Shown here: positions 251 to 27,995 of the stretch, in pieces | Layout of the letters: the number at the start of each line of letters is the position of its first letter | How positions within the stretch are numbered: position 1 is the stretch's first letter | Virus record (IMG/VR): IMGVR_UViG_3300023109_000094 | Location: 1-28,255 of that record | Strand: one strand, 5' to 3' | Length of the DNA stretch: 28,255 nt | Origin: a virus | Program-made: the position numbers and the translations under genes | The notes under the pieces: model-generated | Databases searched by the model: none | Told to the model about the DNA's origin: nothing | The model's input: only the letters and a program-made list of their open reading frames with translations

Positions 251-321
251 AAATTTCCATAAAATTAAAAAAAGTGCTCTCGAAAAATCTCGCGAGTCGA
301 CAAAAGTATATACAAGGAGGC

Positions 322-352
322 TTGGATACCCAGGAAATCTTTCGTATATTTA
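322..352 (+). promoter_or_regulatory. early-class promoter P1
   Basis: TTGGATACCC at 322-331 and TTCGTATATTTA at 341-352 match two other sites (2248 and 2893) almost base for base. The gap between TTG and TA is exactly 20 nt in all three. This fits the known Bacteroidetes promoter, with TTG near -33 and TAnnTTTG near -7. The expected transcript starts near 356 and reads into the DUF932-like gene through an A/T-rich leader. Which sigma factor reads it is not shown. Confidence 0.8.
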
Positions 353-381
353 GGTATATTAATAATAAATAAATAAAAGTT

Positions 382-1191
382 ATGTTAGATTTAAATTCAA
401 GTAAATTTTTAAGTAAGAAAGAGTTAAGTGAAATCGCTCCAAGTATCTTCACAATGAAAGCTTCAGGTGAAGTTTCAGATAAATACACACATATCCCAAC
501 CGAAAGAGTTATTGATGATATGGAGTTATTAGGATGGAAGCCGGTTGATGCGAAAGAGGTTAAAACGAGAAAAGAAAGTACAAGTGGCTTCCAAAAACAC
601 TTAGTTGTTTTTAGAAATGATGATGTTGTTATTAATGGTCAAGATGGTGATCAGGTATATCCACAAATTTTAATTACTAACTCTCATGATGGTAAAAATT
701 CATTTCAATTTACCGCAGGATTATTTAGAATGATTTGTGAGAATGGCTTAGTTATAGCAACAGAAGAATTTGAAGATTTAAAAATGCGCCATATGGGTTA
801 TACATTTGAGGATTTGCAAGTATTAATTAAAGGTATGGTTGAAAAGCTACCTCTAACGGTTGAGGCGATGAATAAAATGAAAGCAGTAGAATTACAAGAA
901 GAAGAAATGTTTGATCTTGCTAAATCATTTTTAGATATTAGAGTTGAAGGAACTAAAAATACATTTAGTAAAGAAGCAGTTGAAGAAGTATTAATTGCTC
1001 AACGTAAGGAGGATGAAGGTAATATGCTTTGGGAAGTATTTAATAGAGTTCAGGAAAACATCATTGAAGGTAATTTCTTATATAATACCCCAAAAGGTAA
1101 ATCACGTCAAGCTCGAGTTATTAAGAACTTCAAACAAGATCAGGAAGTAAATAAAAAAATGTTTACAAAAGCACTTGAATATGCGAACTAA
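382..1191 (+). CDS. DUF932-like phage/plasmid protein
   Basis: This 269-residue protein resembles the DUF932 family found in phages and plasmids, whose function is not firmly known. The recognisable core is roughly residues 45-130: LGWKPVDA, then HLVVFRND, then TNSHDGKNSFQF followed by GLFRMICENGLVIA. The rest is helical and charged. The ATG at 382 follows promoter P1 and the leader AATAAATAAATAAAA (364-378), and the AAAGTTATG context recurs at other starts here. The downstream nucleotidyltransferase gene begins inside its last codons, so the two are probably co-translated. Family membership is judged by eye; no enzymatic role is claimed. Confidence 0.75.
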   Translation: MLDLNSSKFLSKKELSEIAPSIFTMKASGEVSDKYTHIPTERVIDDMELLGWKPVDAKEVKTRKESTSGFQKHLVVFRNDDVVINGQDGDQVYPQILITNSHDGKNSFQFTAGLFRMICENGLVIATEEFEDLKMRHMGYTFEDLQVLIKGMVEKLPLTVEAMNKMKAVELQEEEMFDLAKSFLDIRVEGTKNTFSKEAVEEVLIAQRKEDEGNMLWEVFNRVQENIIEGNFLYNTPKGKSRQARVIKNFKQDQEVNKKMFTKALEYAN

Positions 1192-1585
1192 AATAACATG
1201 GTTAAATGGTTGTTTTGATGTGCTCCACGCGGGGCACATCCAACTATTCAAAAAAGCTTGGGAGCAAGGAAATGATGTGGTAGTGGGAATAGACTCAGAT
1301 GAAAGAATTCGATCGATGAAGGGTGATTGTCGTCCAGTGAATTCTCTAGCAAACAGAATGATTTTCCTCCAAAGTATAAAATACATTCGTACGGTAATAC
1401 CTTTCAATACGGATGAAGAGCTAGAAGCTAATATTAAACGCTTGGCTCCCGAAGTATTTGTAATTGGTGAGGAGTATAGAGATAAACCCATTATAGGTAA
1501 GGAGTGGGCTAAAGAAATGGTGTATGTACCTCGCTATCAAGGTTTAAGCTCCTCGGGTATTATAAATGGAACCCACAACTCATGA
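1181..1585 (+). CDS. cytidylyltransferase-like nucleotidyltransferase (RfaE2/TagD type)
   Basis: This protein belongs to the HIGH-type nucleotidyltransferase superfamily. The N-terminal WLNGCFDVLHAGH carries the HxGH nucleotide-binding motif (HAGH, residues 16-19), followed by GIDSDERI, RP, and near the end GLSSSGII, which corresponds to the STTxII element of RfaE2/TagD enzymes. Such enzymes activate a phosphorylated sugar or glycerol phosphate with CTP or ATP. At 134 residues the protein is the usual length for a single-domain member. A TTG at 1175 would add two residues, but the ATG at 1181 is the better start and overlaps the DUF932 gene by 11 bases. The substrate is unknown; it may supply a precursor for sugar or nucleotide modification. 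Confidence 0.85.
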   Translation: MRTKITWLNGCFDVLHAGHIQLFKKAWEQGNDVVVGIDSDERIRSMKGDCRPVNSLANRMIFLQSIKYIRTVIPFNTDEELEANIKRLAPEVFVIGEEYRDKPIIGKEWAKEMVYVPRYQGLSSSGIINGTHNS

Positions 1586-1597
1586 TATTTATCATAA
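1586..1597 (+). promoter_or_regulatory. late-type motif (variant) before the gene at 1611
   Basis: TATTTATCATAA begins immediately after the nucleotidyltransferase stop codon, 25 nt before the ATG at 1611. It is the least perfect of six ATATTTATAAY-like motifs in the window: ATATTTAT is intact, and the following base is C rather than A. Confidence 0.5.
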
Positions 1598-1610
1598 AAC
1601 ATAACACATT

Positions 1611-1976
1611 ATGCCAACTTACTCAGCATCAGACTTAAATGGAAGCGGATCACTAGGTACCTCAGCAATGACGGCCGGTCAAACCTATACATTCGAATTA
1701 TCTAACACACCAACGACCATAGGTTCGGTAGCCTACTTTACGCTGGAGGCTAACTCAACCGCAAATCAAAATTTATCAACCCAAACCTCATGTGAAGGCA
1801 CATTCGGTGGGTTTTTAAATGAAGTTGATGAAGGCTCATTAATAGAAAATTTATATGGGTTTTCTATAAGCGTATATGGAGCGGGTGGAGCTTTTGAATT
1901 CACACCAACCACAACCATTCCCGCAAATTCATACTATCTTAAAACAACTGGAGTAGTAGGTTTGCAATTGACGTAG
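1611..1976 (+). CDS. unknown small beta-rich protein, possibly a virion component
   Basis: This 121-residue protein is rich in Ser, Thr, Gly, Asn and aromatic residues and has almost no charge. Predicted strands (TYTFELSN, VAYFTLEA, GFSISVYG, YYLKTTGVVGLQL) suggest an all-beta fold. That composition is typical of phage decoration or fibre proteins and unlike the charged early proteins around it. A late-type motif lies just upstream, so it may be a late gene lodged within the early block. It has no signal peptide or membrane segment. The codons are somewhat richer in C (ACC, TAC) than the neighbours. The family is not recognised. Confidence 0.7.
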   Translation: MPTYSASDLNGSGSLGTSAMTAGQTYTFELSNTPTTIGSVAYFTLEANSTANQNLSTQTSCEGTFGGFLNEVDEGSLIENLYGFSISVYGAGGAFEFTPTTTIPANSYYLKTTGVVGLQLT

Positions 1977-2094
1977 TATATACGTATGTATAGATAATGT
2001 GATGTATAAAGGGGAATTTTTGAAGCGACGCTTGAATAAATGTTATGAATAATAAAATTAAATGATATTGGATTTATTTAATAAAAAGAAAGTT

Positions 2095-2241
2095 ATGAAA
2101 TTACAACAAAAAAATAAATTGTTGGAAAACACTATTCTAGAAATGGGTAAACAAATCACTTATCTTAAAAAGCAATCTAAGCATTATAAGGAAGAAAATG
2201 AAGAATTGAAGTTTACCTTAAAACATCAAAGAACTTATTAG
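2095..2241 (+). CDS. small coiled-coil protein (48 aa)
   Basis: The ATG at 2095 sits in the AAAGTTATG context used by neighbouring genes and opens a 48-codon frame ending with TAG at 2239-2241. An in-frame ATG at 2062 would give 59 residues with MILDLFNKKKV in front. The product is highly charged and helical (LLENTILEMGKQITYLKKQ, then KEENEELKF), with heptad-like spacing of leucine and isoleucine that suggests a short coiled coil. Promoter P2 follows directly. The function is unknown. Confidence 0.55.
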   Translation: MKLQQKNKLLENTILEMGKQITYLKKQSKHYKEENEELKFTLKHQRTY

Positions 2242-2247
2242 AAATAT

Positions 2248-2278
2248 TTGGCTACCCGGAGGAGGGTTCGTATATTTA
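2248..2278 (+). promoter_or_regulatory. early-class promoter P2
   Basis: TTGGCTACCC at 2248-2257 and TTCGTATATTTA at 2267-2278 form the second member of the early promoter family, with the same 20-nt gap between TTG and TA as P1 and P3. It starts seven bases after the coiled-coil ORF ends. The expected transcription start, near 2282, coincides with the left arm of a hairpin. Confidence 0.8.
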
Positions 2279-2280
2279 GG

Positions 2281-2299
2281 TGTTCGAATGGTTCGGACA
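2281..2299 (+). promoter_or_regulatory. 5'-end leader hairpin of the P2 transcript
   Basis: TGTTCGAA (2281-2288) pairs with TTCGGACA (2292-2299) over 8 bp around a TGG loop, with one G-U pair. It lies at the predicted transcript start. A related hairpin sits in the same place behind P3 (2926-2944), and the differences between them keep pairing. The shared leader continues with CAATTA before the start codons. Confidence 0.55.
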
Positions 2300-2315
2300 A
2301 TTAAAAATTAAAGTT

Positions 2316-2687
2316 ATGTTGTTAGGTATTTTATTATTAATTATTTTTGGGTATTATTTTATATGGGGCATGCTTCATTTATTTGCTTTTTTATATGACC
2401 ACCCTAGGCTGTTTGTGGTTTTTAGTTTATCTTGTATTATATTCCCTTCATGGTTGTGGTATGATAACTGGGAAAGTGATATGAAGGTAATTGGATTTTT
2501 CATATTTCTCCCAGTTATATTAGGTGGAATTAGGTTATTACCTACGAGTTTAATAGAATTGTTGAAAGGAATGACACATAGAAAATTAAGAGATAAGCAA
2601 AATAGAAAATGGGAGAAACATTTACGGAAAAAAGTTGAAGATGGTAGGATGACTGAGAAAGAATTTATGAAACTTACAAAATTATAA
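2316..2687 (+). CDS. small integral membrane protein (about 123 aa)
   Basis: The protein has about three hydrophobic spans: roughly residues 1-25 (LLGILLLIIFGYYFIWG), 31-47 (LFVVFSLSCIIF) and 57-75 (VIGFFIFLPVILGG). A strongly basic, lysine- and arginine-rich C-terminal tail of about 40 residues follows. The open frame extends back to a GTG at 2280, but that stretch overlaps the end of promoter P2 and the leader hairpin shared with P3. The ATG at 2316, in the AAAGTTATG context, is therefore the more credible start. The basic tail probably faces the cytoplasm. No family is recognised; its early position would fit a host-envelope or takeover role, which is inference. Confidence 0.65.
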   Translation: MLLGILLLIIFGYYFIWGMLHLFAFLYDHPRLFVVFSLSCIIFPSWLWYDNWESDMKVIGFFIFLPVILGGIRLLPTSLIELLKGMTHRKLRDKQNRKWEKHLRKKVEDGRMTEKEFMKLTKL

Positions 2688-2692
2688 AAGTT

Positions 2693-2860
2693 ATGAAACG
2701 AATTTATGAAATGACCGATAAAGAATTAAGACAATCGGTAGGTGCAAACACTAGAGTTATGACTAATAGATTAATTTCTATTTCCAAATGGATAACATTT
2801 TGGTCTATATTACAAATTATTGCTTTAGTTATATTTGGGTTTGTATTAATAAACAGCTAG
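2693..2860 (+). CDS. small single-pass membrane protein (55 aa)
   Basis: The ATG at 2693, in the AAAGTTATG context five bases after the previous stop codon, opens a 55-codon frame ending with TAG at 2858-2860. The first 30 residues are polar (MKRIYEMTDKELRQSVG and on). They are followed by a C-terminal hydrophobic segment (WSILQIIALVIFGFVLI) that should span the membrane once, giving a tail-anchored protein. It is probably co-transcribed with the membrane gene before it. The function is unknown. Confidence 0.6.
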   Translation: MKRIYEMTDKELRQSVGANTRVMTNRLISISKWITFWSILQIIALVIFGFVLINS

Positions 2861-2892
2861 TGAAAAAAAATTAAAGACTCCCGCATAAAGAC

Positions 2893-2923
2893 TTGGATAC
2901 CCGGGATATCTTTCGTATATTTA
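2893..2923 (+). promoter_or_regulatory. early-class promoter P3 (sigma-70 gene)
   Basis: TTGGATACCC at 2893-2902 and TTCGTATATTTA at 2912-2923 form the third copy of the early promoter, again with a 20-nt TTG-to-TA gap. It lies 44 bases before the phage sigma-70 gene, so that gene may be controlled by the host sigma factor or by its own product. Confidence 0.8.
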
Positions 2924-2925
2924 CA

Positions 2926-2944
2926 TGTTCGAATGAGTTGAACA
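2926..2944 (+). promoter_or_regulatory. 5'-end leader hairpin of the P3 transcript
   Basis: TGTTCGA (2926-2932) pairs with TTGAACA (2938-2944) over 7 bp around ATGAG, with one G-U pair. Compared with the P2 leader, one T-G pair has become T-A and one G-C pair has become G-T. Both changes keep pairing, which supports an RNA structure rather than a DNA-binding site. Confidence 0.55.
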
Positions 2945-2966: not shown

Positions 2967-3740
2967 ATGGCAAATTATCAAAATCAGCAAGAATTACAAA
3001 TGTATTTTAAGGAATTGAATAACATTCCTGTAATGACTCCTAATAGAGAAAGAGAATTATCACTAATGATGCGTAATGGAGATACTACGCAAATTCAAAA
3101 AGATAGAATAGTTAAAGAATTACTTGAGGGTAATTTAAGATTCGTAATTAAAATAGCTAATAAGTATCAAAACCAAGGAATGGATTTGGTTGACTTAATA
3201 TCGGAAGGTAATTTAGGTTTAATGAAAGCTATTGATAATTTTGATTGGGAAAAAGAATTAAGATTTATTACTTATGCTGTTTGGTGGATTAAGCAATCTA
3301 TTTTAGAAGCTTTAAATGAAAATAGAACAATTAGACTCCCAATGAATATTCTTCAGGATATAAGTAATGCTAAGAAATTAGCCAGAGACACTAACACTGA
3401 AATTGATGATAAATTCACCAGCTATGCTAAAACCATCTCTGCTGATAATTGGATGAATGATGAAGGTGATACATTCTTTAACATTTTAGAAAATAAAGAT
3501 ACCCCATTACCAGATGAAGGGATTGATGATGAAAATCCTTTAAAATCCAAATTAAGAAACGCAATGTTAGTACTTAATGCTAAGGAAAAGGAAATTATAG
3601 AGAGATATTTTGGGTTTGATGGTATGCCTGATTCATTTGATACATTGAGTGAAGATTTTGGATTAACTAAAGAAAGAATCAGACAGATTAAAGAAAAGGC
3701 ATTACAAAAACTTCGTACTAGAAATTTAATTTTAAATTAA
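2967..3740 (+). CDS. RpoD-like sigma-70 factor
   Basis: This 257-residue protein is a clear sigma-70 family member, close to the primary sigma factor of Bacteroidetes in size and in lacking region 1.1. Region 1.2 spans about 7-40. Region 2 spans about 45-117, with GNLRFVIKIANKYQNQG, DLISEGNLGLMKAID and FITYAVWWIKQSIL, covering core binding, -7 recognition and melting. RTIRLPMNI at 120-128 corresponds to the start of region 3. A shortened, acidic linker follows, then region 4 at about 196-252 with the helix-turn-helix LTKERIRQIKEKAL. All core regions look intact, so it should direct RNA polymerase to promoters. It lies behind promoter P3 and a leader hairpin. It probably redirects host polymerase early or in mid-infection; that timing is inference. 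Confidence 0.93.
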   Translation: MANYQNQQELQMYFKELNNIPVMTPNRERELSLMMRNGDTTQIQKDRIVKELLEGNLRFVIKIANKYQNQGMDLVDLISEGNLGLMKAIDNFDWEKELRFITYAVWWIKQSILEALNENRTIRLPMNILQDISNAKKLARDTNTEIDDKFTSYAKTISADNWMNDEGDTFFNILENKDTPLPDEGIDDENPLKSKLRNAMLVLNAKEKEIIERYFGFDGMPDSFDTLSEDFGLTKERIRQIKEKALQKLRTRNLILN

Positions 3741-4832: not shown

Positions 4833-4863
4833 TTGGCTTTTGGAATTCACTCCGGTATATTAT
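4833..4863 (+). promoter_or_regulatory. candidate divergent early-class promoter
   Basis: TTGGCT (4833-4838), preceded by ATT as in P2, is followed by CGG and TATATTAT (4856-4863). The TTG-to-TA gap is exactly 20 nt, as in P1-P3, but the ACCC block is missing and the -7 element is imperfect. TATAAATA, the T4 late consensus, also occurs at 4861-4868. Confidence 0.4.
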
Positions 4864-6294: not shown

Positions 6295-7107
6295 ATGGAT
6301 TATATAATAAAGAGAAAAAAATCCCAAAAGCAGGGAAGGGTATATTTCACAAAAGAAACAGAAGCAGCTATTGTTAAATACAATAATTCTACTAATGAGT
6401 TAGAACGAAGTGAATTATACCAAGACCACATCCATTGGCCATTTTATAAACTCACAGAAAATATAATCCACACTTTCAAATTTTATTATACAGATGGTGT
6501 TGAAAATTTAGAGGATTTACAACATGAAATAATTGTATTCCTTTTAAGTAAAATACACTTATTTAACCCTGAAAATGGAGCTAAAGCATATTCATATTTT
6601 GGTACTATTGTAAAGCGTTGGTTAATAGTGTATAATACCAAAAATTATGGTAATAAAATAAAAAACATCGCCATATCTGATCTTAATCATTATTCACAAT
6701 TAGACACATCAGATCCCGCATTTATTACATCAAGCAAACGTGAAGCAGATATTAGTACTGTTACTGAGTATGAAGAATTTAGTAATAAAAATCTAAATGA
6801 AACTAAAAATTACAAACATGAAGATCGTTTATCTATATTTATAGATCAATACACTGAATATGTTACTGATATAATTTATGATTTATTTCCTAAAGGTAAT
6901 GATGCTTCAATAGCTGATGCTATATTAGAATTATTTAGAAAAAGAGATGCTATTGATGTGTTTAATAAAAAGGCACTTTATATCTACATCCGTGAGATGG
7001 TAGATGTTAAAACCCCTAAAATCACTAAAATAGCTAATAAATTATATGCTATATTTAAAGAAAAATATATGTTCTATTTAGAGCATGGTTACTTCCCGCC
7101 AAAATAA
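6295..7107 (+). CDS. T4 gp55-like late sigma factor
   Basis: Residues about 70-125 fit the sigma region 2 pattern of phage late factors: NLEDLQHEIIVFLLSKIHLF, then NPENGAKAYSYFGTIVKRWL and a basic KNYGNKIK. This parallels the NPHAYITQACFNAF...KKERKE segment of T4 gp55. T4 gp55 binds the RNA polymerase core and recognises short late promoters, with help from gp33 and the sliding clamp. This protein, at 270 residues, is longer than gp55 (185). The extra C-terminal 100 residues include a possible helix-turn-helix near 225-255 (KALYIYIREM, TPKITKIANKL). It directly precedes the virion operon, whose first gene has an ATATTTATAAT motif. Confidence 0.78.
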   Translation: MDYIIKRKKSQKQGRVYFTKETEAAIVKYNNSTNELERSELYQDHIHWPFYKLTENIIHTFKFYYTDGVENLEDLQHEIIVFLLSKIHLFNPENGAKAYSYFGTIVKRWLIVYNTKNYGNKIKNIAISDLNHYSQLDTSDPAFITSSKREADISTVTEYEEFSNKNLNETKNYKHEDRLSIFIDQYTEYVTDIIYDLFPKGNDASIADAILELFRKRDAIDVFNKKALYIYIREMVDVKTPKITKIANKLYAIFKEKYMFYLEHGYFPPK

Positions 7108-7120
7108 TTTAAAGTTTACA

Positions 7121-7130
7121 TATTTATAAT
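7121..7130 (+). promoter_or_regulatory. late-type motif at the head of the virion operon
   Basis: TATTTATAAT, preceded by ACA, lies between the gp55-like gene and the first virion-operon gene, with 10 bases to the ATG. It is the cleanest placement of the ATATTTATAAY motif. TATTTATA is the reverse complement of T4's late consensus. Confidence 0.65.
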
Positions 7131-21921: not shown

Positions 21922-21942
21922 AATAAAAATAAAAAAATCATA

Positions 21943-21952
21943 TATTTATAAT
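21943..21952 (+). promoter_or_regulatory. late-type motif before the gene at 21967
   Basis: TATTTATAAT, preceded by ATA, lies 14 bases before the ATG at 21967 in a 63-base gap, one of the few gaps in the virion operon. AATATAATTTGGAAT stands upstream, as it does before the motif at 4181. Confidence 0.65.
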
Positions 21953-26954: not shown

Positions 26955-27995
26955 ATGGCAGCGCAGGAAGATAACGCAAACCCAGATGTTACCAATTTAT
27001 ATGGCTATGATAAAGCATATCAACTTTTAGCTACATATTTAACTAATGAAGCAAATAGCGAAAGTAGAGGAGTAGATACTCCAGATGCCCCAGATGACCC
27101 AGAATTAGCTATAGGGACATTTGATGTTACGGCTGATTATTTTTTCTATAAAGTTACTGATGAAATATTTAAAGCAACTGATAGTCCAAACCAAATTGAG
27201 ATTGACCCAGGTACATATACTATTAATGTTGTTGATGATACTGTAAATGGTACTTCGTCAACTAGTGGTTCATCCGGAACTTCAGGTTCAAGTGGCTCAT
27301 CTGGAACTTCAGGATCAAGCGGATCAAGTGGTAGTAAAGGATCAAGTGGAAGTAGTGGAACATCTGGTTCTTCAGGAAGCAGTGGTACAAGTGGTACAAG
27401 TGGTTCAAGTGGAAGTAGTGGTACTGACTACACTGAAGTTACTTTAAGTAACCAATCACCTAGCTCTTTTAATACAACATATATAAGACAATCTACAGGG
27501 TTTACTTTAGATAGTGGAACTGTTGCTAGAGGAGTAGATGGAACTTCAGGATCATCAGGTGGTGCTTCATTTAATGCAGATAGTAACTATTACTACTATG
27601 TGGCTTCAACAAGTGCTGATAGAGGAGTAGATGGAACTTCATCATCCTCCGGATCATCAGGAAATAGCTCAAATTCTAAAATGTTAATTTGGAGTGAGGT
27701 TGATAATAACTGGATGGCTGTTTTTGACTCTAATGGGGTAGATTTCACTGAAGGTAATGTGTTTAATGATCAAGCTCTCAATACAACTGGTATTATTGAT
27801 GGTGTAGTAACAGGTAATAGTATTACAGCTGATGGTAGATTTGTACCACAACCAAGCGCCAATATTGTTTATGGGACTAATGGAGGTGGTGGCTCATCTG
27901 GAACTTCAGGATCAAGCGGATCAAGTGGTAGTAAAGGATCAAGTGGAACTTCAGGAACTGGTGGGTCTAGTGGAATAGATTTAGGAGGAGGTTAA
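26955..27995 (+). CDS. collagen-like Gly-Ser-Ser repeat protein, probably tail fibre or virion surface
   Basis: The first 100 residues form a folded domain (YDKAYQLLATYLTNEA, FDVTADYFFYKVTDEIF, ATDSPNQIEIDPGTYTINVV). It is followed by about 18 consecutive Gly-x-y triplets, almost all GSS or GTS with one GSK, then a beta region and a second run of about nine triplets near the C-terminus. Collagen-like Gly-x-y repeats are known to trimerise phage fibres; here proline is absent and serine/threonine fill x and y. RGVD occurs three times (RGVDT, RGVDGTS, RGVDGTS). The protein ends GIDLGGG. A late-type motif precedes it. It is probably a trimeric virion fibre; the host ligand is unknown. Confidence 0.75.
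   Translation: MAAQEDNANPDVTNLYGYDKAYQLLATYLTNEANSESRGVDTPDAPDDPELAIGTFDVTADYFFYKVTDEIFKATDSPNQIEIDPGTYTINVVDDTVNGTSSTSGSSGTSGSSGSSGTSGSSGSSGSKGSSGSSGTSGSSGSSGTSGTSGSSGSSGTDYTEVTLSNQSPSSFNTTYIRQSTGFTLDSGTVARGVDGTSGSSGGASFNADSNYYYYVASTSADRGVDGTSSSSGSSGNSSNSKMLIWSEVDNNWMAVFDSNGVDFTEGNVFNDQALNTTGIIDGVVTGNSITADGRFVPQPSANIVYGTNGGGGSSGTSGSSGSSGSKGSSGTSGTGGSSGIDLGGG
27293..27351 (+). repeat. 59-bp direct repeat, copy 1
   Basis: A 59-base block coding for G-S-S/G-T-S/G-S-K triplets is repeated without a mismatch at 27890-27948, in the same reading frame. Perfect identity, including synonymous positions, points to a recent copy or ongoing recombination. Confidence 0.9.
27890..27948 (+). repeat. 59-bp direct repeat, copy 2
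   Basis: Identical to 27293-27351, 597 bp downstream. Recombination between the copies would delete 597 bp, a multiple of three, so the reading frame would be preserved. Confidence 0.9.

Follow-up and report, generated by a model that had tools for sequence, protein, structure and literature searches.

A rigidly spaced, putative pre-late promoter in T4-like phages related to Flavobacterium phage immuto, probably read by the host RNA polymerase

The virus record IMGVR_UViG_3300023109_000094 of IMG/VR, 28,255 bases long and probably a fragment (analyzed over its whole length, hereafter the window, and numbered from 1 on the + strand), carries three exact copies of a 31-base pattern, TTGGNTACCC-N9-TTCGTATATTTA. 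Sequence comparison with related viruses indicates that this motif is almost certainly a promoter, and that it very probably represents a pre-late (early or middle) class. The best overall explanation, to which we assign a probability of roughly 0.7, is a pre-late promoter that is read by the host RNA polymerase.

Both strands of the window were scanned, and the exact matches, at 322, 2248 and 2893, all lay on the + strand. No further copy was found on either strand at up to three mismatches, nor did any appear in 100 dinucleotide shuffles, and a mononucleotide estimate puts the exact copies expected by chance in the window at 2e-8. The gap from TTG to TA is exactly 20 nucleotides (nt) in all three; the base following TTGG is A, C and A in copies 1 to 3, and the wider family has A, C or T there. 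ATG codons at 382, 2316 and 2967 follow the respective copies by 20-45 nt. The first-pass annotation of this DNA had described three near-identical copies with an invariant 20-nt gap, a description that holds with no mismatch to the pattern in any of them. A fourth candidate at 4833 (TTGG, a 20-nt gap and TATATTAT) was weak, with a position weight matrix (PWM) score far under that of the set, and was not counted.

Exact copies of the motif occur in at least 119 stretches of IMG/VR, most motif-bearing records being fragments. The spacer was 9 nt in all 125 distinct sites among the matches listed, in a re-scan that permitted 7 to 11, and IMG/VR scans for a spacer of 8, a spacer of 10, a final G or the reversed pattern returned 0 matches each. 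With TTGGNTACCC alone as the anchor, the right box was recognizable at spacing 9 in 11 of 20 additional sites, and, within 3 mismatches, in none of the 20 at a different spacing. All 50 carrier records searched contained the motif when up to three mismatches were allowed, nearly always on a single strand (reversed control, 0), and matches to a weight matrix trained on this same phage group, at a score above 8, numbered 114 forward versus 2 reverse in eight genomes, immuto's share being 19 versus 1. No exact copy was found in the bacterial species genomes of GTDB that were searched, and on this count a host-borne promoter was rejected. This absence and the fixed spacing in related viruses mark a virus-specific transcription programme. 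The earlier proposal that the motif is phage-specific agrees with these counts, and in related phages the pattern recurs upstream of genes, as its author had suggested checking.

The nearest cultured relative is Flavobacterium phage immuto (MW353175, complete), and an immuto homologue was present in 113 of the 119 motif loci among the matches listed. The carriers are probably a clade of T4-like phages related to immuto, and probably infect flavobacteria, the hosts of the uncultured members being deduced from immuto only. In cultured phages other than immuto, two BLAST queries for the motif turned up nothing beyond short or chance-level matches; the best match outside immuto was 28 bases of a variant form (AGAAGC, below) in the unannotated record LT996079. 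Searches of the accessible literature found no description of the motif, of immuto pre-late promoters, or of a promoter code for T4-like flavobacterial phages.

The placement of the sites is that expected of a promoter. In seven records, 69 of 82 sites were intergenic, compared with 8% of the sequence, and the next ATG followed at a median of 26 nt, versus 415 for random positions. The sites in related phages lie on the coding strand. An ATG open reading frame (ORF) follows 339 of 352 sites. The proteins of these ORFs form 140 clusters, of which 95 are singletons and the larger include DUF932 proteins, a gp32-like single-strand binding protein and a RecA/DnaB-like ATPase; inheritance of the motif with one gene family was ruled out by these 140 unrelated clusters. 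Several of the 13 sites that lack a following ATG ORF precede apparent tRNA genes, and such genes were seen directly behind promoter copies at loci L104, L058, L182, L083 and L077. Coding strand, position ahead of the ATG and fixed spacing together bear out the promoter family that had been claimed. In the base composition of the family, C is depleted starting 5 nt past the last A of the motif, and this depletion points to that position as the likely transcription start (+1).

At the level of sequence, the core of the motif is TTGG, a fixed 20-nt gap and TTCGTATATTTA. Among 336 non-redundant sites TTGG is conserved at 95-99% and TTCGTATATTTA nearly so, and the family profile is A-rich 19-16 nt ahead of TTGG. 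The last base is A in 315 sites (94%) and G in 7 (2%). A second common subclass carries AGAAGC in place of NTACCC (TTGGAGAAGC-N9-TTCGTATATTTA), and it too was found in many IMG/VR stretches, the matches listed giving for either form only a lower bound. A set of 521 sites comprised 308 NTACCC-like, 146 AGAAGC-like and 67 other sites, proportions skewed by the retrieval of the loci with these two patterns. Both subclasses were found in 27 gene clusters and 49 loci. The AGAAGC form, seen in G005 (10 sites), G007, G037 and from L241 onward, coexists with the TACCC form within single genomes, before homologous genes. The immuto sites, recognized here as putative pre-late promoters, share the TTG-20-TA spacing, TTCnTATATTTA and a coding-strand position before small genes; they differ in having TTGC followed by other sequences, neither NTACCC nor AGAAGC, and many hairpins in the spacer.

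These counts qualify the first-pass annotation in two points. It had held the extra conserved blocks to be phage-specific, which stands for the family motif but not for TACCC as an invariant part, since TACCC is one of two alternatives and is absent in immuto. The -7 box, for its part, differs from the plain TAnnTTTG of Bacteroidetes in the final base. In Flavobacterium johnsoniae the host -7 box is TAHHTTTG, with a near-invariant G and a hardly visible -33 element (PMC6847099), and the sigma-A motifs of F. psychrophilum vary around TAnnTTTG (PMC9723704). The phage motif shares with Bacteroidetes sigma-A/sigma-ABfr promoters (-33 TTTG/-7 TAnnTTTG) the TTG and TAnnTTT boxes at compatible spacing, so that a TTG-type -33 element is present, but it ends in A and not G, and has in addition a strong TTGG, the fixed 20-nt gap, TTCG and the NTACCC or AGAAGC block. 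In eight phage genomes, intergenic TTG-N20-TAHHTTTA was found 97 times on the coding strand versus 8 on the opposite one. The corresponding counts for TAHHTTTG were 25 and 44; because this box shows no coding-strand excess, no second early promoter class with the host box is visible.

We compared structural with other genes in immuto, six large carriers and the window, labeling genes as structural by their position in immuto, so that both the gene calls and the label are crude. The motif stood before 2 of 204 structural genes, a count that includes immuto PhoH, which is not structural, versus 100 of 925 other genes (p=3e-7). A late-type string (TATTTATAA or TATTTATAT) preceded 44 of the 204 structural and 79 of the 925 other genes, and the two signals differ in distribution (2 and 44 versus 100 and 79) with a Fisher p of 2e-11. 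A de novo word count recovered the same two signals, the motif and TATTTATAA. The pre-late assignment follows from the near absence of the motif before structural genes, which bear TATTTATAA instead. Its place before early-type rather than structural genes agrees with the earlier description of an early promoter family.

The late-type signal, ATATTTATAA, is a second promoter-like class, with an A-rich stretch downstream and no -33 element. Structural genes follow it at a distance of about 17 nt, and it was seen in the window at 1585, 7120, 10073, 21942 and 26921 and at immuto L169-L172. The T4 late promoter, read with gp55, has a single -10-like box, no -35 element and a place before structural genes, a description that the motif fails and TATTTATAA fits. 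Its string is also that of the T4 late box, TATAAATA, in reverse complement, a match that may be fortuitous.

The window itself encodes two candidate readers (Table 1). Copy 3 lies immediately before a gene for a sigma-70 factor whose protein has regions 1.2, 2 and 4, which would suit a promoter of this phage sigma that regulates its own gene through copy 3. We regard this as very improbable. The sigma-70 was not found in 50 other motif-bearing records, and nine related genomes, complete immuto included, gave no match to sigma region 4, in a search that did match the window itself. The single other viral contig found to carry the gene (L209) has a 100% identical copy, and the factor looks private to the window's phage. 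The motif is older and wider than this gene, and a local use in that phage alone is conceivable. The sigma-70 beside copy 3 is unlikely to be a general reader, since it was not detected in any of the other carriers examined, and that role was rejected on this lack of co-occurrence with the motif; the reading of the motif by a phage sigma, as first suggested, is not supported by these searches.

The second candidate, a gp55-like sigma, is encoded in 28 of 51 records, among them all those above 75 kb, a breadth that would fit a general reader. It is divergent, core to the phage group and only weakly recognized by Pfam and PHROGs (7 of 13 relatives gave a weak match to phrog_234, late sigma). Its structure model has low confidence, with a predicted local distance difference test (pLDDT) score of 71, and matches to sigma factors were not significant. 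We hold it to be a most unlikely reader of the motif, given the strong -33 element of the latter and its avoidance of structural genes; a late sigma of the gp55 type is better matched by TATTTATAA, which lacks a -33 element. In the window, its gene lies kilobases downstream of the nearest early site.

We favor the host RNA polymerase instead. Counted from the predicted start, the promoter of pre-late units in the immuto-related T4-like clade would have TTGG at -35 to -32 and the NTACCC or AGAAGC block at -31 to -26; TTCG (-16 to -13) would form an extended box, followed by TATATTTA at -12 to -5. A Bacteroidetes-type sigma-A in the host enzyme would place region 4 on TTGG and regions 2-3 on TTCGTATATTTA, the A-rich upstream DNA would assist the polymerase, and the extra conserved bases would give strength against host promoters. 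A phage factor may touch the -31 to -26 block as well. In this scheme the gp55-like sigma would serve the late genes, from sites without a -33 element. Since no other early promoter class is visible, either the host RNA polymerase or an injected factor must start from the motif. As a reader, the host RNA polymerase, possibly aided by a phage activator near -30, is more likely than the sigma-70 of the window; that the sigma-A holoenzyme would suffice without an essential phage activator is a proposition we find slightly easier to accept than to doubt.

Four points weigh against reading by the host enzyme. At -5, where host promoters have a near-invariant G, the motif has A; its -33 box far exceeds that of host promoters in strength and its spacing is more rigid, features that would suit a modified polymerase; sigma-A alone does not readily account for two discrete blocks at -31 to -26; and the gp55-like protein might hold an unrecognized region 4.

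T4 offers two models for comparison. Its early promoters (UP/-35/TGn/-10), which are read by host polymerase, resemble the motif in having an extended, rigid consensus before pre-replicative genes and A-rich upstream DNA (PMC2988021). The motif precedes pre-late and not structural genes and, over the 336 sites, combines an extended consensus with A-rich DNA upstream; it differs in its host sigma and its boxes, and in that host reading is here deduced. T4 middle promoters depend on a MotA box at -35 to -26, AsiA and sigma appropriation. In a corresponding scheme, a phage DNA-binding protein would bind the -35 to -26 box (TTGGNTACCC or TTGGAGAAGC), next to sigma region 4 or as its substitute, with host sigma region 2 on TATATTTA. 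The phage-specific box likewise lies 13 bp ahead of the -7 box, a geometry matching that of the T4 MotA box (12 +/- 1 bp; PMC2988021), and because of this match a phage activator is a serious rival. Two discrete, interchangeable blocks, before homologous genes and within one genome, would fit an activator, as would a -7 box unlike the host consensus. The box itself differs from the MotA box (wwwTGCTTtA), it exists in two alternative forms, and no MotA/AsiA family member was found (PF09114 and PF09010, ten records), distant analogues being possible. A core-gene comparison revealed no clear activator among the shared genes, and with no other early class visible an activator needed by all pre-late promoters would have to be injected. 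On balance we judge a middle-type promoter unlikely, while an activator contacting the NTACCC/AGAAGC block is possible. Also doubtful, if worth entertaining, is a reprogrammed polymerase, in which a DNA-binding factor of the phage, specific for NTACCC or, alternatively, for AGAAGC, would take over the -31 to -26 contact beside the non-host -7 box, in a manner like sigma appropriation and outside the MotA/AsiA lineage. A conserved 60-amino-acid, ribbon-helix-helix-like protein without a Pfam match, encoded at immuto 48985-49167 with homologues in G005, G006, G010 and G027, is a candidate regulator.

The rigid, host-distinct element, present on many related contigs, could serve in predicting early genes and in recognizing contigs that belong to this phage group. 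How a phage captures the Bacteroidetes RNA polymerase becomes a testable question in view of the two interchangeable blocks and of the change from G to A where the host base is near-invariant.

A minority of sites form a strong hairpin over TTGG and the spacer, some with T runs. Stems at the sites exceeded those of re-paired controls (3.91 versus 3.71, about 4.5 standard deviations), with folds of -6.7 versus -4.7 kcal/mol, and the immuto sites folded at -6.2 versus -2.8 kcal/mol in controls. These excesses would suit an element that is mainly a transcription terminator or an RNA/DNA hairpin and not a promoter, a view we think extremely improbable: most sites lack such a hairpin, and a terminator needs neither the fixed 20-nt gap nor TATATTTA. 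An operator dyad conserved across sites was likewise not found, in that no single register covaries and the top mutual-information pairs are neighboring positions. Terminator-like hairpins with T runs were seen inside the promoter spacer at L037, L047, L091 and L108 and at immuto 22069 and 67962. The simplest reading of the spacer hairpins is as upstream terminators nested in the promoter, so that the end of one unit may coincide with the beginning of the next.

Table 1. Coordinates of the putative promoter copies and associated features in the window
Feature	Position	Strand	Description
Promoter copy 1	322..352	+	TTGGATACCC-AGGAAATCT-TTCGTATATTTA; exact match, PWM score 44.8; upstream of DUF932 gene 382-1191
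Promoter copy 2	2248..2278	+	TTGGCTACCC-GGAGGAGGG-TTCGTATATTTA; exact match, PWM score 45.8; upstream of membrane-protein ORF, ATG 2316
Promoter copy 3	2893..2923	+	TTGGATACCC-GGGATATCT-TTCGTATATTTA; exact match, PWM score 48.0; upstream of sigma-70 gene
A-rich upstream block, copy 1	302..321	+	AAAAGTATATACAAGGAGGC; family profile A-rich 19-16 nt before TTGG
A-rich upstream block, copy 2	2228..2247	+	AAAGAACTTATTAGAAATAT; based on family profile
Upstream block, copy 3	2873..2892	+	AAAGACTCCCGCATAAAGAC; family type AAAGnCTnCCGCnnAAAnAT
Predicted transcription start, copy 1	356..357	+	Putative, +/-1; from C depletion in family
Predicted start and 5'-leader hairpin, copy 2	2282..2298	+	GTTCGAATGGTTCGGAC; fold -6.5 kcal/mol
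Predicted start and 5'-leader hairpin, copy 3	2927..2943	+	GTTCGAATGAGTTGAAC; fold -4.5 kcal/mol
Phage sigma-70 factor	2967..3740	+	Regions 1.2, 2 and 4 by Pfam; target of copy 3
gp55-like sigma factor	6295..7107	+	Weak PF04542; conserved across the phage group; proposed late sigma
Late-type signal	7120..7128	+	ATATTTATA; before ORF 7141, start of structural region
Late-type signal	21942..21950	+	ATATTTATA; before structural ORF 21967

Hairpins were also observed at the predicted 5' end of the leader in many loci, for example GTTCGAATGGTTCGGAC and GGCGCGAAGCC, and copies 2 and 3 of the window are among them; leaders folding at -3 kcal/mol or better made up 22%, versus 6% of shuffled sequences. 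Near the end of the window, the coding region at 27247-27995 is strongly repetitive, of the GSSGTSGSSGSSG type.

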